A stretch of DNA of 64,000 nt from Actinomycetospora succinea. Lineage in GTDB: Bacteria > Actinomycetota > Actinomycetes > Mycobacteriales > Pseudonocardiaceae. The stretch lies in contig NZ_SNYO01000001.1 in NCBI RefSeq assembly GCF_004363095.1, forward strand, positions 558,001 to 622,000. Direction: 5' to 3'. The notes beneath the pieces were generated by a model. That model had not been told where the DNA came from and did no database searches. It saw only the letters and a program-made list of their open reading frames with translations. How positions within the stretch are numbered: position 1 is the stretch's first letter; every line of letters begins with the position of its first letter. The position numbers were made by a program, and so were the translations under genes. This document shows positions 32,809 through 61,500 of the stretch, piece after piece.

Positions 32809-34194
32809 ATGACCGACATCGACGGGACGAGGGGGCCAGGGGAGACCCTGGACGTGCTGGGGGTGGGGTTCGGGCCGTCGAACCTGGCCCTGGCGCTGGC
32901 CGTGCAGGAGCACAACGAGCGCTCCCCGGAGTCCGCGCGCGTCGCGGCGGGCTTCGTGGAGCAGCAGGCGGCGTTCGGGTGGCACCGGGGGATGCTGCTC
33001 GAGGGGGCGACGATGCAGGTGTCGTTCCTCAAGGATCTCGTGACGATGCGGGATCCGACGAGTCCGCGGTCTTTCCTGAACTACCTGCAGGGCCAGGGCC
33101 GGCTGGCGGACTTCATCAACACGAAGACGATGTTCCCGTCGCGGGTGGAGTTCCACGACTACCTGGAGTGGTGCGCCGCCGACGTGCGCCACCTCGTCTC
33201 CTACGGCACCCGCGCGGTCGCGGTCCACCCCGTCACCGGTCCGGACGGGTCGGTCGAGGAGCTCGACGTCGTGCTGCGCGACGCGACGGGGGAGGGCACC
33301 CGCACGGTGCGCACGCGCAACCTCGTCCTCGCGACCGGGCTGGTGCCGTGGCTCCCGCCGGGGGTCGAGCGCAGCGAGCGCATCTGGCACAACAGCGAGC
33401 TGCTCCACCGGCTCCGGGCCGTCGACGCCGACCCGTCCGATCCGTCCGGCGTGTCCGGGGCGCCCCGGCGCTTCCTCGTCGTCGGCGCGGGCCAGAGCGC
33501 GGCGGAGACCACCGAGCACCTGCACCGCCGCTACCCGGACTCCGAGGTCCGCTCGGTGTTCTCGCGGTACGGCTACAGCCCGGCCGACGACACGTCGTTC
33601 GCCAACCGGATCTTCGACCCGGACGCCGTCGACCACTTCTACGAGGCGCCGGGCGACGTCAAGCAGATGCTCATGGACTACCACGCGAACACGAACTACT
33701 CGGTGGTCGACCCGGAGCTCATCCAGTCGCTCTACCGGCTCGCGTACCAGGAGAAGGTCGCCGGCACGCAGCGGCTGCACGTCCACGGCGCGAGCCGGGT
33801 CGCGGGCATGCGGGACGCCGGGGACGACATCGACGTCGACATCGAGTTCCTGCCGACCGGTGAGCGGGAGACGGTGAGCAGCGACGTCGTCGTCTACGCG
33901 ACCGGCTACCGCCCGATCGACCCGACCTCGATGCTCGGCGACGTCGGCGGCTGGTGCCGCCGCGGCGACGACGGCGAGCTGCTCGTCGAGCGCGACTACC
34001 GCATCACCACGACCGCGCCGCTGCGCGCGGGCGTCTACCTGCAGGGACCCACCGAGCACACCCACGGCATCAGCTCGACGCTGCTCTCCACGACGGCGGT
34101 GCGGGCCGGCGAGATCCTGGCGTCGCTGGAGCTCCGCCGTCCCGCGGGGATCACCGCGGTGCGCACCGTGCCGGCCGCGCCGGTGGGGTCGTGA
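32809..34194 (+). CDS. L-ornithine/L-lysine N-monooxygenase, copy 1
   Basis: An FAD- and NADPH-dependent N-hydroxylase of 461 residues that prepares the hydroxamate building block, most likely N5-hydroxy-ornithine because the third adenylation domain downstream carries the exact hydroxyornithine code. The FAD motif [15 protein letters not shown] is at residues 19-33, [36 protein letters not shown] follows, the NADPH motif is [15 protein letters not shown], and ATGYRPIDP and the C-terminal [19 protein letters not shown] close the fold. GGGGAG precedes the ATG. Its stop overlaps the NRPS GTG. A near-duplicate lies at 53005. Confidence 0.93.
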
Positions 34195-37100
34195 GCACCC
34201 TCTCCGTCCGTTCCTCGACGGTCGTGGGGGGCCGGACCTGGCCGGACCGGTTCGCCGAGCAGGTCGCCGCCCGGGGCGACGCGGTCGCCGTCGAGCTGGG
34301 CGACGCGTCGCTGACCTACGCCGCGCTGGCCGACCGGGCCGCCCGGCTCGCAGCCCTGCTCGCCGGGCACGGCGCCGGGCCGGAGCGCCTGGTCGGGCTC
34401 GCCCTGCCGCGCTCGATCGACCAGGTCGTGGCCCAGGTCGCGGTGCTCTGCGCGGGCGCGGCGTACCTGCCGGTCGACCCGGACCAGCCCGAGGAACGGG
34501 TCCGGCTCGTCCTCGACGACGCGGCGCCCGCCGTGCTCCTGACGACGGGCGAGCTGCGCGGCGACCTCCCGCCGGAGTGGGCCGAGCGCGCGGTCCTGCT
34601 CGAGGAGCTCGACCTCGACGCGGCGACACCCGCGCCGCTCGACCCGAGCGTCGACGTCGCCTCGCTCGCCTACGTGATCTACACGTCGGGCTCGACAGGA
34701 CGTCCCAAGGGCGTGCTCGTCACCCACGGCGGCGTCGACAAGCTCGTCGCCACCCAGACCGAGCGCCTCGGCGTCGGCCCCGACGACCGCGTCCTCGCCT
34801 TCGCCTCGCCGAGCTTCGACGTCGCGTTCTGGGAGCTGTGCCAGTCGCTGCTCTCCGGCGGGCGGCTGGTGATCGTGCCGAGCGAGCTGCGGGCGCCGGT
34901 CCCGGAGCTCGCGGAGTACCTGCACGCCCACGACGTCTCCGTCATGATCCTGCCGCCGGTGCTGCTCGCGGCGATGCCCGACGACGTCACGCTGCCGCCG
35001 GGCGTGCTGCTCGCCGGGACCGAGCGCGTGGCCCCGGAGCTGGTGGCGCGGTGGGGGCGCGACCACCGCATGTTCAACGCGTACGGGCCCACCGAGGCCA
35101 CCGTGAACTCGACGCTCGGCGAGGCCCACCCCGACACCCTCGACGGCGCCTCGGTCCCGATCGGCGTGCCCGACCCGCTGACCACCGCCCGGGTCCTCGA
35201 CGCCGAGCTCGCGCCGGTCGCCGACGGGGTGCCGGGCGAGCTCTACCTCGGCGGCCCCGGTCTCGCGCGCGGCTACCTCGGCCGCCCGGGCCTGTCCGCC
35301 GAGCGCTTCGTCGCCGACCCGTACGGCGGGCCCGGCGAGCGGCTCTACCGCACCGGCGACCTCGTCGTGCGCCACGGCGGTGTCGCCGGCGTCCTCGACT
35401 TCCTCGGGCGCACCGACGACCAGGTGCAGATCCGGGGCTTCCGCGTCGAGCCCGGCGAGGTCGAGTCGGAGCTGCGCGGCCACCCCGGCGTGGCGCAGGC
35501 GGCGGCGGTCGTGCGCGACGACCTGCCCGCCGGGCGGGGGCTGGTGGGCTACGTGGTGCCGGCGCTGGAGTCCGTCGGCGACGATCGCGTCGCCGACTGG
35601 AAGGAGCTCCACGAGGTCCTCTACACGGCCGCCGACGAGGACGCCGCGCTCTTCGACGACGGCTTCGCCGGGTGGAACTCGACCTACGACGGCACCGACA
35701 TCCCGCGCGAGCACATGCGCGTGTGGCGCGACGGCGTCGTCGACCGGATCCGCGCGCTGCCCGCCGGGCGCCGCGTGCTGGAGGTCGGCGTCGGCAGCGG
35801 GCTGCTGCTCACCGAGGTCGCGCCGGAGGTCGAGCACTACGTCGGCATCGACCTGTCCGCCGAGGGGATCGCCGCGCTGCAGCGCCGGGTCGAGGCCTCC
35901 GACATGCTGCGCGAGCGCGTGGTCCTCGAGACCCGGCCGGCGCACGAGGTCGGCGGGGTCGACGGCGGCCCGTTCGACGCGGTCGTCGTGAACTCGGTGG
36001 CCCAGTACTTCCCCGACGGCGACTACCTGCGCGCGGTCCTGCGCGACGCGGCCGGGCTGCTGGCGCCCGGCGGCGCGATCCTCGTCGGCGACGTCCGGCA
36101 CGCTGGCCTGCTGCGCACGCTGCGCGCGGGCGTCGAGACGGCCCGGGACCCGGGCGCGGACCCGGTGGCGCTGCGCCGCGCGGTCGACGGCTCGGTGGCG
36201 TGGGAGCCCGAGCTGCTCGTGCACCCCGACTTCTTCCGCGAGGTCGCCGACGAGCTCGGGCTCGCCACGGACGTGGAGCTCGAGCGCACCCCGTTCCACG
36301 ACGAGCTCTCCCGCTACCGCTACCACGCGACCCTCTACGTGCGTGATCTTCACAGCTATAGCTCAGAAGATCACGCACGTACGGTGAGGTGGAGCGGGTC
36401 GGTCGAGGCGGTGCGGGAGGCGCTGGCTGCGTCGCCGGACCTGCGCGTGGTCGGCGTCCCGAACGCGCGGCTGACCCCCGACCTGGAGGCGCTCGCGCGG
36501 GTCGACGGGACCGAGCCGCCCGCCGTGCCCGCCGCCGATCCCGAGAACCTCCTCGCGCTCGCCACCGACCGCCCGGCCCGGGCGACCTGGGACCCCGAGG
36601 ACCCGACGCGCTTCGAGGTCCTCTACGGCGACGCCGGCCCGGTCTTCCGCGGCGGGGGGCCCACCGGCACGACGAGCCCCGCGCCGTTCCGCGACGTCGG
36701 CGCCCTGACCTCCGGGGTGCGCGAGCACCTGCGCGACCGGCTGCCCGAGCACCTGGTGCCGGCGGCGGTCGTCGCCGTCCCGGAGCTGCCGACACTGCCC
36801 AGCGGCAAGCTCGACCGCGCCGCGCTCCCGGCGCCCGACCTCGCCGCCGAGGTCGAGGGCACCGCGCCGCGCACGCCCCGCGAGGAGCTCCTCGCGCCGG
36901 TGTTCGCCGACCTGCTCGGGCTGCCGGGCATCGGCGTGCACGACGACTTCTTCGCCGTCGGCGGCGACTCGATCCTCTCGGTCTCGCTGGTCGCGCGGGC
37001 GCGGGCGGTCGGGCTCGTGATCACGCCGCGGCAGATCTTCACGCACCGGACCGTGGCCGGGCTGGCGGAGGTCGCGACGGCGCGCGACGACACCGTGCAG

Positions 37101-40100
37101 GACGGTGTCGCGGTCGAGCTGGACGCCGCGGCGCGGGCGGCGCTGGGCGATGCGAGCGAGGTCTGGCCGGTCTCCGCGCTGCAGGAGGGCTTCTTCGTCC
37201 ACGCGGCGCTCTCGGACGTCTACACCGTCCAGGAGGTCGTGCGGCTGCGCGGCCCGGTCGACGCCGGCGCGTGGCGGGCGGCGGCCGGGCGGCTCCTCGA
37301 ACGCCACCCCCAGCTGCGCGCCGGCTTCGCGCAGCGCGCCGACGGCCGCGTCGTCCAGGCGATCGCCGCGTCCGTCGAGCTGCCCTGGCGCGAGGTCGAC
37401 CTGCGCGACCTCGACACCCCGGCCCCCGAGAACGCCCTCGACGACGTCGTCGTGGCCGAGCGCGCCGAGCGCTTCGACCTCGCCCGCCCGCCGCTGATCC
37501 GCGCGGCCCTCGTGCACACCGGGGACGACGCCGCCGCGCTCGTGCTGACCTTCGAGCACATCGTGCTCGACGGCTGGTCGGTCGCCGTGGTCGTGCGGGA
37601 GCTGCTGGCCGACACCGGCGAGGCCACTCCCGACATCACCCCCGACTCCGACCTCGCCACCCACCGCGCCCGCTACGCCCGCCTGCCCGACCAGGACGCC
37701 GACCTCGCCGCCTGGCGCGAGACGCTCGCCGGCCTCGACGAGCCCACGCGGCTGCTCGAGGCCCTGGCCCCGGACGCCGCGACCGACCCCGCCCCCGCGC
37801 GCGCCCCCCGCCACCACCAGAGCCACCTCGGGGTCGACGAGGAGACCACCGGCCGGCTGGTCGCCGCGGCCCGGCGCCGCGGCCTGACCCTCGGCACCGT
37901 GCTGCACGGCGCCTGGGCGCTCATGGTCGGGCGCCTCACCGGCCGCCGCGACGTCGTCGTCGGCAGCACCGTGTCCGGTCGCGACGGCGTGCTGCCCGGC
38001 GTCGAGGACGCGGTCGGCCTGTTCATCAACACGGTTCCGGTCCGCCTGCGGTGGGCGCCGGGCGAGCCGGTCGGCGACGTCCTCGCCGCGCTGCAGGCCC
38101 ACCGCACCGAGCTGCTCGACCACGACGGCGTCGCCCTCGCGGCGCTCCAGCGGGAGCTGGGGCACGGGGAGCTGTTCGACTCGCTCGTGGTCGTGGAGAA
38201 CTACCCGCAGCCGGACGGGGTCGAGGCGATCGACGTCGTCGACGCCGTGCACTACCCCGTGGCGCTCATCGCGGCCGTCGGCCCGCGTCTCGACCTGACG
38301 ATCAAGCACGACCCGACGCGCGTGGACGCCGCGGCCGCCGAGCTGGTCGTCGCCCAGCTGCACCGCACCCTCGACCTCCTCGCCGCCGATCTCGACGCCC
38401 CCGTGGCGACGATCCCGCTGCGCGACGCCCCGCCGCGCCACCCCGACACCGCGCACGCCGCCCCGCCCACCACGCTCACCGGCTGGATCGCCGCGCAGGC
38501 CGCCACCACGCCGGACGCCCCCGCGGTGATCGCCGAGGACGGGACGCTCACCCACGCCGACCTGGCCCGACGCGCCGCCGGGCTCGCCGCGCGGCTGGCC
38601 GACGCCGGCCCCGTGGTCGGTGTCGCCGTGCCGCGCTCGGCCGACCTCGTCGTCGCCCTCGCCGGCGTGCTGCACGCGGGCCGCGCCTACGTTCCGCTCG
38701 ACGTGGAGCTGCCCCGCGAGCGCCTGGCCGCGGTGATCGCCGACGCCGGGGTCGAGGTCGTCGTGACGACGCGTGAGACCGCGCTCCCGGACGGGCCTCG
38801 GAGGGTCCTCATCGAGGACGCCGGCGACGCCGACACCCCGCCCGCGGAGCCGGACCCCGACGCCGCCGCCTACGTGATCTTCACGTCCGGCTCGACGGGG
38901 CGCCCCAAGGGCGTCGTCGTCAGCCACCGCGCGATCGTCAACCGGCTCGCGTGGACCCAGGACACCTACGGGCTCACGCCCGACGACCGGGTGCTGCAGA
39001 AGACGCCGGTCGGCTTCGACGTCAGCGTCTGGGAGCTCTTCTGGCCGCTCGTCACCGGGGCGGCGATCGTCGTCGCGCGCCCGGGCGGGCACCGGGACCC
39101 GGCGTACCTCGCCGGGCTCGTCGCGCAGGCCGGCGTGACGACGATGCACTTCGTCCCGTCGATGCTCGAGGCGTTCCTCGCCGCCGACGAGGTCACCGGG
39201 GACCCGTCCTGGGCGGCCCCGCTGCGCCGGGTGCTCGCGAGCGGCGAGGCGCTGCCGGCCGGTGCCGCGGCGCGCTGGCGGGCGCTCACCGGCGTCCCGC
39301 TGCACAACCTCTACGGGCCCACCGAGGCGGCCGTCGATGTCACGTACCACCAGGTCAGCGACGCCGACACGGCCCGCGTGCCGATCGGCGCGCCCGTCTG
39401 GAACACCACGCTGCACGTCCTCGACGCCTGCCTCGCGCCGGTCTCCGACGGGGTGCCCGGCGAGCTCTACCTCGCCGGCGTCCAGCTCGCCCGCGGCTAC
39501 ACCGGCCGGCCCGGGCTCACCGCCGAGCGTTTCGTCGCCGACCCGCACGGGTCGGGCGAGCGGCTCTACCGCACCGGCGACCTCGTGCGTCGCCTGCCGG
39601 ACGGCGAGCTCGAGTACCTGGGCCGCACCGACGAGCAGGTGAAGATCCGGGGCCAGCGCATCGAGCCGGGCGAGGTCGAGGCCGCGCTCGCCGCGCAGCC
39701 CGGCGTCGCACGCGCCGCGGTCACCGTGCGCCGCGACGGCCCGGCGCCCGCGCTCGTGGGCTACGTGGTGGGCGACGCCGACGGCCTCCGGGAGGCCCTG
39801 GCGCGGGAGCTGCCCGAGGCCATGGTCCCCGTCGCGGTCGTGGCGCTCGACGCGCTGCCCCTGACCGCCAGCGGCAAGCTCGACCGCGCGGCGCTCCCGG
39901 CCCCCGAGCTGGGCACGGGCCCGGCCCGCGAGCCCGCGACCGAGGCCGAGCGGGTGCTCTGCACGATCTTCGCCGAGGTGCTGGGCCGCGACTCGTGCGG
40001 CCCGGACGACGACTACTTCGCGCTCGGCGGCGACTCGATCGCCGCCATCGGCGTCGCGAGCCGCGCGCGGCGCGCGGGCCTCGCCGTCGGACCCGCCGAG

Positions 40101-43100
40101 GTGTTCGCGGGCCGCAGCCCGGCCGGTGTCGCGGCGCGGGTGCCGGCGACCGGGGGCGACGCGCAGCGCGTCGAGGACCTGGTCGCGCCGGTGGCGCCGT
40201 CCGAGGTACGGGCCGACGTCGACGTCGCCGAGGTCTGGCCCCTCTCCCCGCTGCAGGAGGGCCTGTTCTTCCACGCCGGCCTCGACGGTGAGGCGGACGT
40301 CTACCGGATCCAGGAGACCGTCGACCTCGACCACCGCCTCGACCCCGACCGCCTGCGCGGCGCGGTGGCGACGCTGCTCGCCCGCCACGACGCCCTGCGC
40401 GCCGGCTTCACCAGCGAGGGGCTCGACGAACCGGTCCAGTTCGTCGCCGCGTCGCTCGACCCGCCGGTCCGGGTGGTCGACGCGCCGTCCGACGACGCCG
40501 TCGCGGCCGCCACCGCCGAGGACCGCGCCGCCGGCTTCGACCTGGCCGCGCCGCCGCTCTTCCGCGTCGTGCTCGTGCGCGGCCCCGAGACCGACCGCGT
40601 CCTGATCTCCCGTCACCTGCTGCTCTGGGACGGCTGGTCGGCGTGGACCGTGCTCTCGCAGCTGCTCGGGGCCTACGCCGGCTCCACCGACAAGGAGCTC
40701 GAGCCCGCCGGCTCCTACCGCGACCACCTCGCGTGGCTCGCCGCGCAGGACACCGACGCCGCGGTGGAGGCGTGGCGGACCGCGCTGGCGGGGCTCGAGG
40801 AGCCGACGCTCGTCGGGCCGGAGACACCGGGGCCGCTGCGCGAGCAGGACCTCGAGCTCGACGTCGCGGTCACCGCCCGCCTGCGCGCGCTGACCCGCGA
40901 GCGGGGGATCACCGCGCACACCGTGCTGTCGACGGTCTGGGGTCTCGTGCTCGCCGCGGCGACCGGGCGCACCGACGTCGTCCTCGGCACCACGGTCGCC
41001 GGGCGCCCCGACGCCGTGCCGCACGTGGAGACCACCGTCGGCCTGTTCCTCACGACCGTGCCGACCCGCCTCGTGCTCGACGGCGGCGAGTCCGCGGGCG
41101 CGCTGCTCGCGCGCGTGCAGGACGAGCGGCTGGGGCTGCTGGCGCACGAGTGGGTCGGCCTCGGCGCGATCCAGCGCGCCGCGGGTCGGCGGACCCTCTT
41201 CGACACGCTGTTCGTCTACCGCCCCGAGGGCGGCGAGGAGCGCATCGCCGACCTGTCCGCACGCCACGGCGTCACCGCGCTGCGCAACGACGACGCCACG
41301 CACTACCCGCTGACCTTCATCGTCACCCCGGGCGAGCGGATGCGGCTCACGCTGGCGCACCCGCTCTCCGACGACGATGCGCAGGCGTGGCTCGACCGCT
41401 TCACCGCCCTGCTCGACCAGGTCCTCGCCGACCCCGACACCGCGGTGCCCGCGCTGGACCCGCTGCTGCCCGACGAGCGCGAGGCCGTGGTCGGCGGCCG
41501 CGACGGGGCGCCGGTCGACCTCGGGAACGTGACCGTCGCCGACATGCTCGCCGAGCGCGCGGCGCTCGTGCCCGACGACCTGGCCCTGGTGTCCGGGGAC
41601 GTGCAGTACACCTACCGCGAGCTCGACGCGGCGATCGACCGCACCGCGCGCCTGCTGCGCTCGCGCGGCGCCGGACCGGAGACCGTGGTCGCGCTCGCCG
41701 TGCCGCGCTCCGCCGAGACCGTCGTCGCGCTCTTCGCCGTCCTGCGCGCCGGGGCGGCGTACCTGCCGCTCGAGCTCGACCACCCCGCCGAGCGGCTCCG
41801 GGAGACCCTCGCCGACGCCGCACCGGTCGCGCTGGTGACGCTCGCGCGGGTCGCGGACCGGTTCGACGGGGTGCCGGCGATCGTGCTCGACGACCCCGCG
41901 GTCGCCGCCGAGCGCGATGCCCTGCCCGCGGGCGCGCTGACCGACGCCGAGCTCGGCGACTTCGCCTGCGACCGCGCCGACCGCCTCGACCGCCCCGCCT
42001 ACCTGATCTACACGTCGGGCTCGACGGGCAAGCCGAAGGGCGTCGTCACCCCGTACCGCGGGCTGACGAACATGCAGATCAACCACCGCACGGAGATCTT
42101 CGACCCGGTGGTGGCCGCGGCCGGCGGGCGCCGGCTGCGGATCGCGCACACCGTGTCGTTCGCCTTCGACATGTCGTGGGAGGAGCTGCTCTGGCTCGTC
42201 GAGGGCCACGAGGTGCACGTCCTCGACGAGGAGCTGCGCCGCGACGCGGCCCGGCTCGTGGCGCACGCCGCCGAGCACGCCGTCGACGTCGTCAACGTGA
42301 CCCCGACCTACGCCGAGGCGCTGATCGAGGAGGGGCTGCTCGCCGACCGCGGGATGCCGCTGGTGCTGCTCGGCGGCGAGGCGGTGTCGGACGCCGTCTG
42401 GTCAACCCTGCGCGACACCGGGGGGACGCTCGGCTACAACCTCTACGGGCCGACCGAGTACACGATCAACACGCTCGGCGGCGGCACCGAGGACAGCGCC
42501 ACCCCGACGGTCGGGCGCCCGATCACCAACACCCGCGCGCACGTGCTCGACCCCTGGCTGCGCCCGGTGCCCGACGGCGTCCCCGGCGAGCTCTACATCG
42601 CCGGCACCGGCCTCGCCCGCGGCTACTGGCGCCGCGCCGGGCTCACCGCCGAGCGCTTCGTCGCCGATCCCACCGACGCGGCCGGCGGGCGGATGTACCG
42701 CACGGGCGACCTCGTGCGCCGCCGCCCCGGATCGGGCGGCGTGCTGGACTTCCTGGGCCGCACCGACGACCAGGTCAAGATCCGGGGGCACCGCGTCGAG
42801 CCCGGCGAGGTCGCCGCGGCGCTGACCGCGCACGACGCGGTGGCGCGCGCGGCCGTCGTCGCCGACCGGTCCGGTCCGGGCGGGTCGGCGCGGTTGATCG
42901 GGTACGTGGTGGCGGCCGGGGACATCGCCGGTGTCCGCGACGACCTCCGTTCCCGGCTCCCGGACCACCTCGTCCCGGCCGCGCTCGTCGAGGTCGGCAC
43001 GCTGCCGCTGACCGTCAACGGCAAGCTCGACACGGGCGCGCTGCCGACGCCCGACCTGGCCCCGGCCGGCGGTGGGCGCCCGCCCGCGACGGCGACCGAG

Positions 43101-46100
43101 GAGACCCTCTGCGGGATCTTCGCCGCGGTGCTCGACGTCCCGCGGGTGGGGCCCGAGGACGACTTCTTCGACCTCGGCGGCCACTCGCTGATCGCCACCC
43201 GCCTGCTCTCGCGCGTGCGCACCGCGCTCGGCGCCGACGTCGCCCTGCGCGACCTCTTCGACGCGCCGACCCCGGCGGCACTGGCCGAGCGGGTGGGGGA
43301 GCGCGAGCCGGCCGACGCGCGCCCCGAGCTCGTGTCCCGCGAGCGCCCCGACGCGCTCCCGCTCTCGGCCGCGCAGCAGCGGCTGTGGATGCTCGCGCAG
43401 CTCGACGAGGCCGGTGGCGGCGCGTACCACTACCCGATCGTCCTGCGGGTGCGTCCCGACGGCGAGCGCCTGGATCTCGACGCGCTGTCCGCCGCGCTCG
43501 ACGACGTCGTCGCCCGCCACGAGCCGCTGCGCACGCTGATCGACGGCGCCATGCAGCGCGTGCTGTCCGACGTGCGCATCCCGCTGACGCGGGCGTCCGC
43601 GTCCTCGGAGGACGAGGCCGCCGAGATCGTCACGGCCGAGGTGGCGCGCCCCTTCGACCTGACCCGGCGGCCGCCGCTGCGGGCCACCGTGATCGACCTC
43701 GGCGACGAGCATCTGCTCGTCCTCGTCCTGCACCACATCGCCACCGACGAGTGGTCCGACGGGCCGCTGTTCGCCGACCTCGCCGCGGCCTACGCGGCCC
43801 GGCGCGACGGCCACGCGCCGGAGTTCGCGCCGCTGCCGGTGACGTACGCCGACTACGCGCTCTGGCAGGCGGAGCTGCTCGACTCCTCCGGCGCAGGGTC
43901 GTCGGAGGCGGACCGCCAGCTCGCGTTCTGGACGGACGCCCTCGCCGGCGTGCCCGACGAGCTGGAGCTGCCCACCGACCGCCCGCGGCCGGCGAGGCCC
44001 AGCTTCACGGGCGGCACGGTGGCGCTGCCGCTGGACAGCTCGGTCGCGGAGGGCCTGCGGGAGCTCGCCCGCGACCGCGGGGCCAGCACGTTCATGGTCC
44101 TGCAGGCCGCCGTGGCGGTGCTGCTCTCGCGCCTCGGCGCCGGCGACGACGTCCCGCTCGGCGCGCCGGTCGCCGGGCGCACCGACCCGCGTCTCGACGA
44201 CCTCGTCGGGTTCTTCGTCAACACCGTCGTCCTGCGCACCGACCTGTCCGGCGCGCCGTCGTTCGGCGAGCTCGTCGACCGGGTCCGCGCGACCGACCTC
44301 GCCGCGTTCTCGCACGCCGACCTGCCGTTCGAGACCGTCGTCGAGCACCTCGACCCGCCGCGCGTGCTCGCCCGCACCCCGCTGTTCCAGGTGATGGTCG
44401 GACACCACGTCCGCTCGGGGGCGCCGCTGTCGCTGCCGGGGCTCGCGGTCACCGAGGACGACGTCGCCGGCACCACCGCGAAGTTCGACCTGGTGTTCTC
44501 GTTCGTCGAGACCGACGGGGAGATCACCCTGCACCTCGAGTACGCGGCGGACCTGTTCGACCGCGCGTCGGCCGCCCGCGTCGCCGATCGGTTCGCGCAG
44601 GTGGCGGGGTCCGTGGTGTCGGCGCCGGGCACGCCGGTCGCGGACGTCGACGTGCTGACCGCCGACGAGCGGGCGCAGCTCGCCGCCCTCGAGGGCCGCC
44701 CCGACGCCCGCGCGGTGCCCGAGGAGACGTTGATCGACGCGTTCGAGCGGCACGCCGACGCGCGCCCGCACGTCGCGGCCGTCGCGGACGCCGAGCGCGA
44801 GGTGACCTACGCCGAGCTGGACGCGCTGGCCGAGGGCGTCGCCGACCGGCTCGACGGGGTCGGCCCCGAGGACGTCGTGGCGGTCGCGGTGCCGCGGTCG
44901 GTGACGATGGTCGCGGCGGTGCTCGGGGTGCTCAAGCGGGGCGCCGCCTGGCTCCCGCTCGACCTCGCGCACCCGTCGGAGCGCCTCGCGCACATGCTGG
45001 AGGACTCCGGGGCGGTCCTCACCGTGGCGACCTCTGCCACGGCCGAGCGCGTCCCGTCCGGGCCGCCGCAGGTGGTCCTCGACGGGGTCGCACCGTCACC
45101 GCGACGCGACCGCGCTCGCCCGGCGAGCCTCGAGGGCGCCGCCTACGTCCTCTACACGTCGGGCTCGACGGGCCGGCCCAAGGGCGTCGTCGTGCCGCAC
45201 GAGGGGATCGCGAGCCTCGCGGCGACGTCGGTCGACCGCATGAGCGTCACCGCGGAGTCGCGGATCCTGCAGTTCGCGTCCGTCGGGTTCGACGTCGCCG
45301 CGTTCGAGCTGACGATGGCCCTCACCCTCGGCGGGCGCCTGGAGATCCTGCCCGACGAGGCCCGGGTCGCCGGCCCGCCGCTCACCGACTTCCTGCACGA
45401 GCGCCGGATCACCCACGCGATCCTGCCGCCGTCGCTGGTCGCGGCCCTGCCCGCGGACTGCGTGATCCCCGACGGCACGACGGTGCTGGTCGGCACCGAG
45501 ACCGTGCCGCCGGACCTCGTCGCGCGGTGGGCCGACCGGCTGCGGATGCTCGTGGCCTACGGGCTCACCGAGGCGACCGTGAACTCGACACTGTGGCGCA
45601 CGCGCACCGACTGGTCGGGGCTGCTGCCGATCGGCGAGCCCGACCCCAACACGGTCGTGCGGGTGCTCGGGCCGCGCCTCGAGCCCGTGGCGCCCGGCGT
45701 CGTCGGCGACCTGTGGGTCGGCGGGCGGGGACTGGCGCGCGGGTACGTCGGGCAGCCCGGTCTGACGGCCTCGCGCTTCCTCCCCGACCCGTACGGCCCG
45801 CCGGGCGCGCGGCTCTACCGCACCGGCGACCGCGCGCGCTGGCGTCCGGACCCGGAGGCGAGCGCGGGCCGGGTGCTCGACTTCCTGGGCCGCGACGACG
45901 ACCAGATCAAGATCCGGGGCGTGCGGATCGAGCCCGGCGAGGTCGCCGCGGCGCTGTCCGAGCACCCCGGGGTGGCGCTGGCCGTGGCGGTGGCCGATCG
46001 CGACGGCGACCTGGCGCGCCTCGTGGGGTACGTGAGCCCGTCCGACGGCGTCGTGGACGTGGGCGAGGTGCGCGCGGCGGCGGCCGCCCGGCTGCCCGAG

Positions 46101-47600
46101 CACATGGTCCCGTCGCTGGTCGTCGCGCTCGACGGGCCGGTGCCGCTGACGCCGAACGGCAAGGTGGACCGCCGGGCCCTGCCGGCGCCGGACTGGTCGG
46201 CGCTCGTGTCGTCCGCCGCCCCGACCACGCCGGAGGAGGAGCAGCTGGCGGCGATCGTCGCCGAGGTCCTGCGCCTCGAGCGGGTGGGTGTCGACGACGA
46301 CTTCTTCGCGCTCGGCGGGCACTCGATGGCCGCGATGCGGCTGGTCTCGGGGGTGCGCGAGGCGCTGGGCGTCGAGCTGGTGGTGCGCGACGTCTTCGAG
46401 GCGCCCACCGTCGCCGCGCTGGCGCTGCGGGTGGCCGAGGCGCCGCGCGCCCGGCCCCGCCCGGTGCCGAGCGGGCCGGCCGGCGAGGAGGAGCCCCTCG
46501 CGCCGGGTCAGCGCCGCCTGCTCGTCGACGGCACGGTCCGGCGCCCGGACCACGCGCTCGTCCTCGACGGCCCGTTCGACCGGGAGGCGCTCGCGGCGGC
46601 GGTCGACGACGTCGTCGCGCGCCACGAGCCGCTGCGGACGACGATGCGCTCGTCGCGGCGCGTCGGTGTGGGCGGGCCCGGGCTGACCGAACGGACCGGC
46701 GCGCTCGAGGACCTGGCCCGCGAGCCGTTCGACCTGGCCACCGAGCCGGCGTTCCGGGCGCACCTGGTGGACGGGCGCCTGCTGCTGGTGCTCGGCTACA
46801 CGGCGGTCGACGAGTGGTCGGTGGTGCCGCTGCTGCGCGACCTCGCGGGTGCGTACGCCGCGCGGCGGGCGGGCGACGAGCCGGCGTGGACGCCGCTGCC
46901 GATCTCGTACACCGACTACGCGCGGTGGGCGGGGGCGCTACCGGTGCGATCTCCCGCCGACCGTGACGACCTCGTGGGGCTGCCGACGTCGTTGTTCGCG
47001 CCCTCCGGGGCCGCCGATGCCTCGGTGATCGCCGTCGAGCTGGACCCCGGGCAGCGGCTCGCGCTCGACCGTCTCGCGCGGCGCACCCGCGCGAGCCTGC
47101 TCATGGTGCTGCAGGCCGCCCTCGCGTGGGCGCTGACCGCCGAGGGCGCGGGCGAGGACCTGCCGCTGGTGACCATGGACGCCGGCCGCGTGGACGCCGC
47201 CCTCGACGACCTCGTCGGGTCGGTCGCCGACCTCATCGTCGTGCGCACCGACACCTCCGGGGCGCCGTCGCCCGAGGAGCTCCTCGACCGGGTGCGCCGC
47301 GCCGACCTCGCGGCGTTCGCCCACGACACCCCGTTCGCCGACGTCGCCGCCCACACCGGGCTCACCCGGCCCCCGGTGGCGCTCGTGCACCACGAGGACG
47401 TGGGGATGGCCGGCGAGCAGTCGGTGCTCGGCGCGCTCGACGCGGTGCCGACCGGGGCGTCGTTCGCCGACCTCACCCTCGCGTTCTGGGAGACGGCGCC
47501 GGGTCAGCCGATGGCGATCGAGCTGATCCACGACCCGGCGGCCGTCGACGACGCCCTCGCGCGCCGGATCCTCGACCGCGTCCTGGCGTTCGGGGCCTGA
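34191..47600 (+). CDS. Four-module siderophore non-ribosomal peptide synthetase, A-MT-T-C-A-T-C-A-T-C-A-T-C
   Basis: 4469 residues. Approximate order: A1 with embedded N-methyltransferase ([12 protein letters not shown], residue 530) between A8 and A10; T1 Ser near 925; C2 (EHIVLDGWS, 1122); A2 (1430-1880); T2 near 1947; C3 (HLLLWDGWS, 2142); A3; T3 near 2997; C4 (HHIATDEWS, 3181); A4; T4 near 4042; truncated terminal C5. Binding-pocket residues read by alignment to GrsA give A2 DVWHLSLVDK (serine) and A3 DMENLGLINK (N5-hydroxyornithine). A1 DVWILAAVNK and A4 DVFIVVAVNK are related to each other but unassigned. C5 has GYTAVDEWS, so the catalytic His pair is lost, and there is no thioesterase. 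The GTG start is coupled to the hydroxylase stop. A palindrome is inserted in frame near residue 722. Confidence 0.95.
36336..36381. repeat. 46-bp near-perfect palindrome in frame inside the NRPS gene
   Basis: Arms TACGTGCGTGATCTTC and its exact complement (16 bp) flank a 14-base centre whose own core AGCTATAGCT is a palindrome. Overall 21 of 23 half-positions pair. It is read as [14 protein letters not shown] at the junction after the methyltransferase domain. The AT-rich centre is foreign to the gene's codon use. Confidence 0.85.
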
Positions 47601-58831: not shown

Positions 58832-61443
58832 CGCGTCACCAGCCGGCCCTGCCCCTCACCGGGGCGCAGGAGGGCATCTGGTTCGCCCACCACCTCGACC
58901 CCGCCAACCCGATCTACACCACGGGCGCGCGGGTCGACATCGACGGTCCGCTGGCCGGGGACGTGCTCGCCGCGGCGATCCACGAGACCGTCGAGGAGAC
59001 CGAGGCGCTGCACGTGCGGTTCGTCGTCCGCGACGGGCAGCCGCGCCAGGTCCCGCTCGGTCCGGACGAGCGCTCGCCGTGGGCCGTGGCGCGGGTCGAC
59101 CTGCGCGCCGAGCCCGACCCGGAGGCGGCGGCGCAGGCGTGGATCGAGGACGCCCTCGCCGCGCCGTCCGACCTGCACGAGGGGCCGCGGTTCTCCCAGG
59201 CCCTGTTGCGTCTCGGCGAGGAGCACCACGTCTGGTTCCACCGCTACCACCAGGTGGTGATGGACGCGTACGGCTTCTCGCTGATCGCCCGCCGCGTCGC
59301 GACGATCTACGGCGCCCGCCTCGCGTTCGACACGGTGCCGCCGACGCGCGCCGGGTCGCTCGCCGAGCTCGTCGCCGCCGACGGGGAGGCCCGGCGGCTC
59401 GCGGGGGAGGCCGACCGCGACTTCTGGACCGAGCGGTTCCCCGGGCCGCCCGAGCCGGCCACGCTCGCCGGCACCACGGCGCGCGTCACCGGCACCCGCC
59501 GGCGGCGCAGCAGCACCCTGCCGCCCGAGGTGGTCGTGCGGATGGAGGCCGCCGCCGACCGCGCGAAGGGGCACTGGCCGGAGATGGTGCTGGCGGCCGT
59601 GGCGCTGTACCTGCATCGGCTCTCGGACGCCCCGGACGTCGTGCTCGGCGTGCCGATGATGGGACGGCTCGGCCGGCCGGGGGCGCCCGCGGCCCGGACG
59701 CCCGGGATGCTCGTCAACATCGTGCCGCTGCGGGTCGCCCCGCGGCCGACGACCACGGTGCGCGGGCTCGTCGCCGACGTCGTCGCCGAGCTGGCCGCGG
59801 TGCGGGCCCACCAGCACCACCGCTTCGAGGACCTGCGCCGCGACCTGCGCCTCGACGCCGCCGAGGGCCCGCGCGGGGAGGCCGCGCTGGTCGGGCCGTG
59901 GGTCAACGTCCGGCCCGCCGAGCTGCTGCGCTTCGGTGCCCGCACCACCGGCGTCGCCCGCCCCGTCTCCGGCGGCCCGGTGCACGACCTCGCGGTGCAC
60001 GTCCAGCGCCTGCCCGACGGCGGCCTCGCCCTCGACGTCGACGCCAACCCGGCGACCTACGACGTCGCGGCGCTCGAGAGCCACCACGCCCACCTCGACG
60101 CCCTCCTGCGCACCCTGACCGCCGCGCCGCCGGACCGCCTCGTCGCCGCTGTCCCGCTGCTCGACGCCGACGAGCGCGCTGCGGCGGTGGCGGCGGGGCG
60201 GGGGACGGCGCCGGCGACGGGCGACCTGACCACGCTGCTCGGTCCCGCGGACGGCCTGGCCGGGCGTCTGCGCGACGCCGGCGCGGGCCCCGGGACCGTC
60301 GTCGCCGTGGCCCTCCCGCCCGGCCCCGAGCTCGACCGTGCGGCGCGCGCCGTGCTGCAGGCGGGGGCGAGCGTGCTGCCGGTCGACGTCGACGCCCCGG
60401 CCGCGCGCCTGGCGCCGCTGCTCGCCGAGACCGCGCCGGTGCTCGGGGTGGCGGCGACGCCCGACGCGCTGCCGGGGGTGCGGACGATCGCGGTCGACGG
60501 CGTTGCGGCGGACGCGGGCGAGGTGCTCGCGGTGGACGACGCCCACCCGGCGCTCGTGCTCCCGGTGCCCGCCGGCCGGCGGCGCCCCGTGGGGCTCGTC
60601 CTGTCCCGCGCGGCCGCGCGGGCGCGGCTCGCGGACGGCGGGACGCTCTGGTCCGCGGCACCGCCGCGCGGGAGCACCACCCGGGTGCTCGACCGCGCCC
60701 TGCAGGACGTCCCCGACGGCGCGGCCGGCGAGCTCTACGTCGGCGGCGCGGGCCTCGCCGACGGCTACCTCGGGCAGCCCGCCCTGACCGCCACCCGGTT
60801 CGTCGCCGACCCCGCCGGGGCGCCGGGGGCGCGGATGGTGCGCACGGGCGAGCGGGTGCGCCGGGACGGCACCCCCGTCGGGCGCCTCGACGGGCTGCTC
60901 ACGGTGGGTGGGCAGGTCGTCGAACCCGGCGAGGTCGGGGCCGCGCTCGAGGGCCTCGACGGCGTCGCGCAGGCCGTGGTGTCGGTGCGCGAGGGCCAGC
61001 TCGTGGCGCACGTGGTCGGGCAGGTCCCCGACGACCTGCGGGCCCGGGTGGCTGCGGTCCTGCCCGCCGCGCTGGTGCCGAGCGCCGTCGTGGTCGTCGA
61101 CGACTTCCCGCGCACCGCCGACGGGCGGGTCGACACGGCTCGGCTGCCCGCCCCGGCCGCCCGGACCGAGCCCGAGGACCGGACCCAGGAGCGGCTCTGC
61201 GCGGTCGTCGCCGAGGTCCTGGGTCTCGAGTCGGTGGGCCCCGACGACGACTTCTTCGCCCTCGGCGGGCACTCGCTGCTCGCGATGCGGCTGATGTCGC
61301 GGGTCGGCGAGGAGCTCGGCGTGACCCCGACGGTGCGCGACGTCTTCGACGCGCCCACCCCGGCGGCCCTCGCCGACCTCCTGGGCACGCGCCTGACGCC
61401 GACCCGGGTCCTCCGCGGCGACGAGGCCGTCCCCGCGCCCTGA
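58828..61443 (+). CDS. NRPS C-A*-T module with a deleted adenylation core
   Basis: 871 residues. The condensation domain (1 to about 440) starts [18 protein letters not shown] as in EntF/DhbF starter domains that accept an aryl acid; the active-site motif is [10 protein letters not shown] (near 138), keeping the second His and the Asp. Residues about 465-790 are an adenylation domain lacking most of its core: the P-loop position reads [14 protein letters not shown] instead of [10 protein letters not shown], and the roughly 180 residues holding A4 and A5 are gone. A6-A8-like pieces ([33 protein letters not shown]) and [12 protein letters not shown] (A10 Lys replaced by Arg) remain. The carrier domain [10 protein letters not shown] (Ser near 816) is intact. 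It probably condenses DHB with an amino acid loaded in trans. Confidence 0.9.
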
Positions 61444-61458
61444 CCAGCGCGGACCCCC

Positions 61459-61500
61459 TGTGAGCGAACTTTGGTGCCACAGCACCAAAGTTCGCTCACA
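61459..61500. terminator. Perfect 19-bp hairpin between convergent NRPS and mbtH genes
   Basis: TGTGAGCGAACTTTGGTGC and its exact complement enclose the loop CACA. It lies 16 bases after the NRPS stop and 8 bases before the mbtH stop, so it can terminate both directions. It is strikingly long and AT-richer than the surroundings. Confidence 0.8.

Follow-up and report, generated by a model that had tools for sequence, protein, structure and literature searches.

The palindrome embedded in a large NRPS gene of Actinomycetospora succinea raises the question of what kind of sequence can stand in frame within a coding region and how it came to be there. The window analysed is a 64,000-nt stretch of contig NZ_SNYO01000001.1, to which all coordinates without a locus or contig prefix refer. 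The NRPS ORF spans 33954..47600 on the + strand (coding-score start 34191), and its first 1,400 aa comprise an A domain interrupted by a methyltransferase, plus a carrier and a condensation domain. The initial annotation described a near-perfect 46-nt palindrome in frame after the methyltransferase domain, and both its palindromy and its position were confirmed. The strandless palindrome (36336..36381) consists of two 23-nt arms (36336-36358 and 36359-36381) that are 91% complementary (21/23 pairs) and joined without a spacer; the ORF reads through it in frame, yielding a 14-aa peptide between the upstream Methyltransf_12 match (aa 609-708, 35778..36077, + strand) and the downstream carrier (PP-binding) domain match (aa 980-1039, 36891..37070, + strand). 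The best palindrome in 30 codon shuffles of the ORF reached 16-19 pairs. The sharp compositional difference from the gene was equally real, with a GC content of 0.48 vs 0.769; among the 13,601 46-nt windows of the ORF, the only one with GC that low was the palindrome itself. A chance origin is ruled out by the codon shuffles and the near-identical copies dispersed elsewhere.

The size of 46 nt is correct for this palindrome, but other copies set the repeating unit at 40 nt (36339..36378, strandless, GTGCG...CGCAC dialect), the left arm of which departs from the family consensus at two bases, ACAG replacing TGAG. In the ortholog of genome G012 (85% amino-acid identity), the same site holds a palindrome of another dialect, GTGAGCGAAATTCCCGGCTATGGCCGGGAACTTCGCTCAC, translated as VSEIPGYGRELRSH, unlike the A. 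succinea peptide. An identical linker peptide over non-palindromic DNA had been named as evidence against a mobile element; this one close ortholog presents the opposite, palindromic DNA with a different peptide. The idea of a recent insertion fared less well, as the G012 site is already palindromic in its own dialect and no clean empty site was found. Nor did the palindrome simply add 14 aa: the linker from the conserved HA(T/V)L to the next W measures 18 aa in the A. succinea NRPS, 19 aa in G012 and 14 aa in G016, G001 and G003, the linker of the three more distant orthologs being 4-5 aa shorter. The NRPS element is an old and probably neutral occupant of the linker that follows the methyltransferase, and such hairpins within NRPS genes need not mean assembly errors or domain features.

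Membership in a family of mini-elements was substantiated by dispersed, near-identical copies in the A. succinea genome (G000) and by a wider class of such palindromes in its relatives, the majority of the form GTGAG...CTCAC. The consensus of the 40-nt unit in this genome, termed dialect 1, is GTGCGTGATCTTCTGAGC-NATN-GCTCAGAAGATCACGCAC. A search allowing three mismatches returned 21 copies, none with more than two mismatches and only the NRPS copy with two, and a spaced-palindrome search returned 20 exact-arm copies, each read on both strands. An additional weaker copy at C11:182563 (contig 11) lay beyond the reach of the 3-mismatch search. At ≤1 mismatch, all 43 half-sites of the genome fell inside the 21 palindromes or the weaker contig-11 one; isolated dialect-1 half-sites were absent at this threshold, and the single weaker copy did not form part of any decayed series in the genome. 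Since all 43 half-sites belong to palindromes, no longer element with these arms as ends, as a partner transposon would be, is present in this genome.

The unit comprises 40 nt and a mostly conserved AC/GT pair outside, with an outer GT(A/G) alike on both sides and symmetric GTG(A/C)G ends. The pattern CGTGAG-N30-CTCACG, used below, fixes the 40-nt length and cannot itself demonstrate it; a search without fixed length again returned 40-mers in G000 and G003. Exceptions to this length were 37 nt in G011 and 41 nt in G012. Beyond about 2 nt outside the 40-mer, flanks paired no better than the flanks of unrelated loci. At positions 4-15, five Actinomycetospora dialect-1 sets and the GTGAG sets from G000, G003 and G436 showed the same level of flank pairing as mismatched loci (p = 0.08 at the lowest), and Kineococcus exceeded that level (p = 0.001, 13 sites). 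Hairpins grown locally at each locus are thereby ruled out, Kineococcus excepted.

No T-run followed the hairpin in the dialect-1 flanks displayed. Rfam searches of six palindrome-bearing loci at gathering cut-offs gave no family match to the palindrome; a SAM-IV riboswitch match away from it (L037:1-110) was the sole match in these loci. Phage and plasmid collections queried with a 61-nt sequence contained no palindrome carrier, and the interior of the single viral_contigs match was not palindromic. A phage or plasmid carrier was rejected on these grounds.

Most copies occupy gene ends. The 21 copies in G000 included 13 between convergent genes, 4 between codirectional genes, 3 within genes and 1 in a C-terminal tail overlapping a convergent gene; the convergent copies mostly lie 4-8 nt past one stop codon, with the other stop 1-7 nt off or inside the palindrome. 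The loci of four other species, chosen for dialect 1 and to that extent biased, were convergent in 45/83 cases, codirectional in 20, divergent in 4 and in-gene in 11, with 3 cut by the locus end. Gene calls were made with our own codon-score caller, and the contexts assigned are subject to error close to where genes start or end. A second class member in the window (61460..61499, strandless, GTGAG dialect, 18/18 stem pairs) lies in the usual convergent position, between a + strand gene ending at 61443 and a - strand gene called from 61508. An unbiased but small census of pattern matches in G000, G003 and G436 revealed a convergent excess over the share of intergenic bases in G000 (6/8, P = 0.0004) and G436 (10/15, P = 0.0001) and no clear convergent bias in G003 (4/17, P = 0.07). 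One of the nine G000 census matches (140622, 13 pairs) is chance-like, yet was kept in the counts.

Among in-gene pattern matches in the collected loci, with orthologs counted apart, 26/28 were in frame 0, 4/26 of them near the protein end. The frame-0 copies encode peptides resembling the 14-aa NRPS one in unrelated proteins, and the out-of-frame matches L103:5416 and L202:15920 are taken as chance matches to the loose pattern. Hosts assigned by Pfam match were a GntR-aminotransferase (MocR) linker, a class-II glutamine amidotransferase (presumably EgtC-like), a PfkB-cytidylyltransferase-like protein, an NRPS A domain (L048), a GT9 ORF with a weak coding score just after the palindrome, and the A. 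succinea NRPS linker; the A-domain matches L062:7679 and L131 were assigned by motif alone. More than one gene appears to have an in-frame palindrome in the NRPS A-domain loop that follows a YGPTE-like motif (L048:2817, L062:7679, L131:2172).

The position of coding copies in linkers and loops agrees with the view of the initial annotation that inter-domain linkers tolerate insertions. Its proposal of selection for frame-preserving landing sites was not upheld: in the two dialects translated, frames 1 and 2 contain stops and frame 0 is stop-free, and most copies lie outside genes. With stops in two of three frames, frame 0 alone would be survivable within genes, so that filtering could explain the frame.

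Many of the palindrome positions are shared between species. The 105 dialect-1 sites of five species and one MAG formed 29 shared-site groups and 33 singletons, the groups being recognised by conserved flanks of about 74-95% identity matched on one or both sides. In 210 orthologous-flank comparisons, which are not independent and include other dialects, we found a like palindrome in 63, a different palindrome in 113, 30-80 nt of other sequence in 18 (some being a shifted or decayed palindrome) and less than 30 nt in 16, the last representing genomes without a palindrome at a shared site. At least two palindrome types (>6/40 differences) occurred in 9/28 groups, some of which were listed twice with overlapping loci.

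Dialect change at shared positions alters both arms together. In the MocR linker, palindromes were present in 10 species, all in frame 0 and with differing peptides; 93.8% of positions were paired, and 8/18 pairs had changed on both sides. The linker was unrelated in 8 other species, including G001, where it is out of frame in translation. After the stop codon before L123:8949, a 40-nt palindrome was found in 11 species and a 37-nt one in G011; the palindrome was absent in G002, G010, G013, G015 and G016 and none was recognised in G001, the left gene alone aligning in several species. Across the 11 species 98% of cells were paired and 14/18 pairs had changed on both sides, in an alignment that includes L152:1443 and omits L145:1368 (not an orthologous site) and the 37-nt palindrome of G011.

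Six of the 18 genomes of the genus contain the dialect-1 core (46, 21, 19, 11, 8 and 1 copies) and 12 lack it; besides G000, the records are Actinomycetospora cinnamomea, A. straminea, A. chibensis, A. callitridis and one MAG. A second dialect, GTGAGNGAACTTC, was found at ≤1 mismatch in G011 (33), G012 (12), G000 (9), G002 (6), G017 (2) and G009 (1), with 0 in the other 12 genomes. The dominant dialect differs between genomes, with 33/0 second-dialect and dialect-1 copies in G011 vs 9/21 in G000. By DNA identity over three regions (87-89%) rather than by a tree, G011 came nearest to G000 among the genomes compared, and the three dialect-1 sites of G000 open to comparison hold other palindromes in G011. 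Several dialects also coexist in one genome.

At least one match to CGTGAG-N30-CTCACG occurred in 57/90 Pseudonocardiaceae genomes, many of the low counts being due to chance, and at least 30 in 16 genomes, up to 460; the reversed control gave 0-2 matches. The matches listed for G000, G003, G436 and G474 showed palindromic interiors; in the other rich genomes, matches were counted only. In a class-wide sample, the dialect-1 core was present in 2/394 genomes, one of them G000. Kineococcus vitellinus has at least 14 loci (L006, L016, L031, L037 and ten more; a lower bound) with a 10-nt dialect-1 core and another inner arm, and its palindromes have locus-specific palindromic flanks. Core matches at one locus each in Ruminococcus, Lachnospiraceae, Sphingomonas, Verrucomicrobia and Methanothrix look like chance and lack inner pairing. 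Further repeated palindromes occur in G003, some of up to ~64 bp with GATCATG in the arms (L196:14798-14861, L202:18198-18243, L207:1431-1490) and others of ~50 bp, GAACGA...TCGTTC (L195:12334-12384, L203:17572-17626).

On balance, we favour the explanation that the NRPS palindrome is a coding member of an RPE/REP-like class of 40-nt palindromes, found in Actinomycetospora and further Pseudonocardiaceae, that has no known transposase, is homogenised at the level of DNA and is tolerated in loops. Copies would persist at harmless places, chiefly the gaps between two convergent stop codons. There the hairpin could act for both genes as a putative terminator or form the 3' end of their mRNAs, and a stop codon could come from the terminal GTGAG. 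Within genes, survival would be limited to the stop-free frame in loops, where the copy would be read as a short hydrophilic peptide that the protein does not need. Palindromy may be kept at the DNA level, probably by hairpin or cruciform template switching that copies one arm onto the other; PMC8604942 describes template switching that homogenises arms in coding DNA of yeast. Among the dialect-1 loci listed, a selection that biases such ratios, G-T and A-C mismatches on the transcribed strand numbered 21:22 (13:16 codirectional, 8:6 in-gene), a comparison of little power with 43 cells and 48 other mismatches set aside. This near equality means that selection on RNA alone is not supported.

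Template switching alone leaves the uniformity of dialects within a genome unexplained, and ordinary homologous conversion is unlikely since distinct dialects share little sequence. The dominance of a single dialect would point to a putative sequence-specific process that copies or favours it. A possible, still doubtful, extension is a transposase-free molecular drive, in which one trans-acting factor per lineage would recognise 40-nt palindromes and overwrite those already present, within protein genes as well as at gene ends, with its own dialect. If so, position sets would be re-written between close species, and new linker peptides would arise in proteins incidentally. A class whose positions stay fixed while its dialects change, and for which no transposase was found, lends itself to tests of concerted evolution among dispersed 40-base sequences. 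Neither a mechanism of spread nor a recent insertion was caught in the material analysed.

Several observations concern the surroundings of the palindromes. In G000, G011, G005 and G012, two palindromes enclose a divergent MarR/hydrolase pair (L284 2345-3655); G009 also has the pair, with a palindrome recognised on just one of its sides. Four species, G017, G006, G002 and G008, lack the pair (L284 compared with L290, L291, L292 and L289), and their outer genes adjoin a single palindrome, which is weak in G008. In addition, a ~1-kb segment between two palindromes seems inverted between A. cinnamomea and A. straminea (L010:392-1426 and L028:5752-6785; flank matches). Judged from sequence comparison, the pair and the inversion suggest palindrome-bounded rearrangement, and mixed arms at rearranged sites would fit recombination followed by arm copying. 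Synteny breaks were found at 12/28 boundaries with a palindrome vs 15/68 without (Fisher p = 0.048), a weak difference, as convergent boundaries may break more often anyway.

Among the rival explanations, bidirectional intrinsic terminators, with the RNA hairpin under selection, would account for the strong fold of a typical copy (-39.6 kcal/mol), for the convergent excess in G000 and G436 and for the location of most G000 copies a few bases from both stops of convergent genes. However, terminators need neither a shared sequence nor a fixed length, only 6/79, 4/61 and 10/63 convergent gaps hold a palindrome, some copies lie within long ORFs, and G-T is not in excess over A-C; we consider this explanation unlikely. 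Binding or uptake sites co-evolving with a putative sequence-specific protein are quite unlikely in our estimate, as dialect-1 half-sites never occur alone in G000, several dialects share a genome and the inner arms remain palindromic in spite of their variation; a near-invariant outer arm and dialects that extend genome-wide over shared positions speak for such sites, and passages of PMC5217627 describe inverted uptake sequences that act as terminators in Haemophilus.

Mobility by transposition was weighed in two forms. If a DDE or other transposase moved a MITE-like element, the dialects would be successive element families, and the sharp ends (flank pairing fades ~2 nt outside), the empty-like sites in 16/210 comparisons and the MarR/hydrolase pair missing in four species at a single palindrome would fit. 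Yet target duplications of 2-9 nt were not above chance at the 103 dialect-1 sites listed (units of 40-48 nt), a result that lowered our estimate slightly in favour of the terminator and binding-site explanations. Independent insertions at an identical spot in 10-11 species are implausible, the phage and plasmid collections gave no match, and the one weaker dialect-1 copy is no decay series; a MITE thus appears improbable. Mobilisation as REP elements by a RAYT/IS200-type Y1 transposase is hardly credible, even though length, palindromy, dispersal and gene-end position are REP-like. The Y1_Tnp profile (PF01797) is absent from 15/16 genomes with at least 30 matches, G000 included, which largely refutes such mobility, and 12 of the 13 genomes that encode it (13/90) hold 0-4 palindrome matches.

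The favoured reading, a homogenised class of 40-nt palindromes, can be set beside known systems. An actinobacterial family of in-frame palindromes is apparently undescribed, in a host family with many sequenced genomes; among the matches listed from the literature searched, mostly openly accessible papers, there was no prior description of the 40-nt family. Passages of PMC6649704 describe perfect coding palindromes in nematomorph mitochondria whose arms evolve in concert, with template switching proposed. The 40-nt class likewise has palindromes in genes with arms changing together, but the nematomorph palindromes do not form a family of dispersed sequences with a set length. Uptake sequences have dialects per species. 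According to passages of PMC5217627, inverted USS pairs of Haemophilus are sequence-specific dyads at 3' ends that act as terminators, and a CGAAA-N19-TTTCG palindromic pair is known from Mycobacterium. The class resembles the Haemophilus sites in its sequence-specific dyads at gene 3' ends and its dialects, and differs in that single dialect-1 half-sites are absent from G000 at ≤1 mismatch.

REP elements sit at gene ends. PMC3733652 describes them as high-copy palindromes of 20-40 bp, and the words Actinobacteria, GTGAG, Mycobacteri and Streptomyces do not occur in its main text. The class shares palindromy, high copy number and gene-end position with REP/BIME elements and their RAYTs, whereas the Y1 transposase is missing from nearly all rich genomes, copies occur in frame in coding sequences, and the ends are symmetric (GTGAG/CTCAC), the GTAG/CGTC tag at one foot of REPs not being encountered.

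To our knowledge, most known cases of palindromic elements in frame come from Rickettsia, and we know of no transposase for the Rickettsia palindromic elements (RPE). These are dispersed palindromes, some in frame in unrelated proteins and with a conserved peptide, in the passages of PMC10969869 that describe them. Like RPE, the 40-nt palindrome is found in frame in diverse proteins, namely NRPS, MocR, glutamine amidotransferase, PfkB-type kinase and GT9 proteins. Unlike RPE, its unit is 40 nt rather than ~150 bp (a distinction of length, not of sequence comparison), its host is actinobacterial, most of its copies lie at gene ends, and its dialects change at fixed positions.
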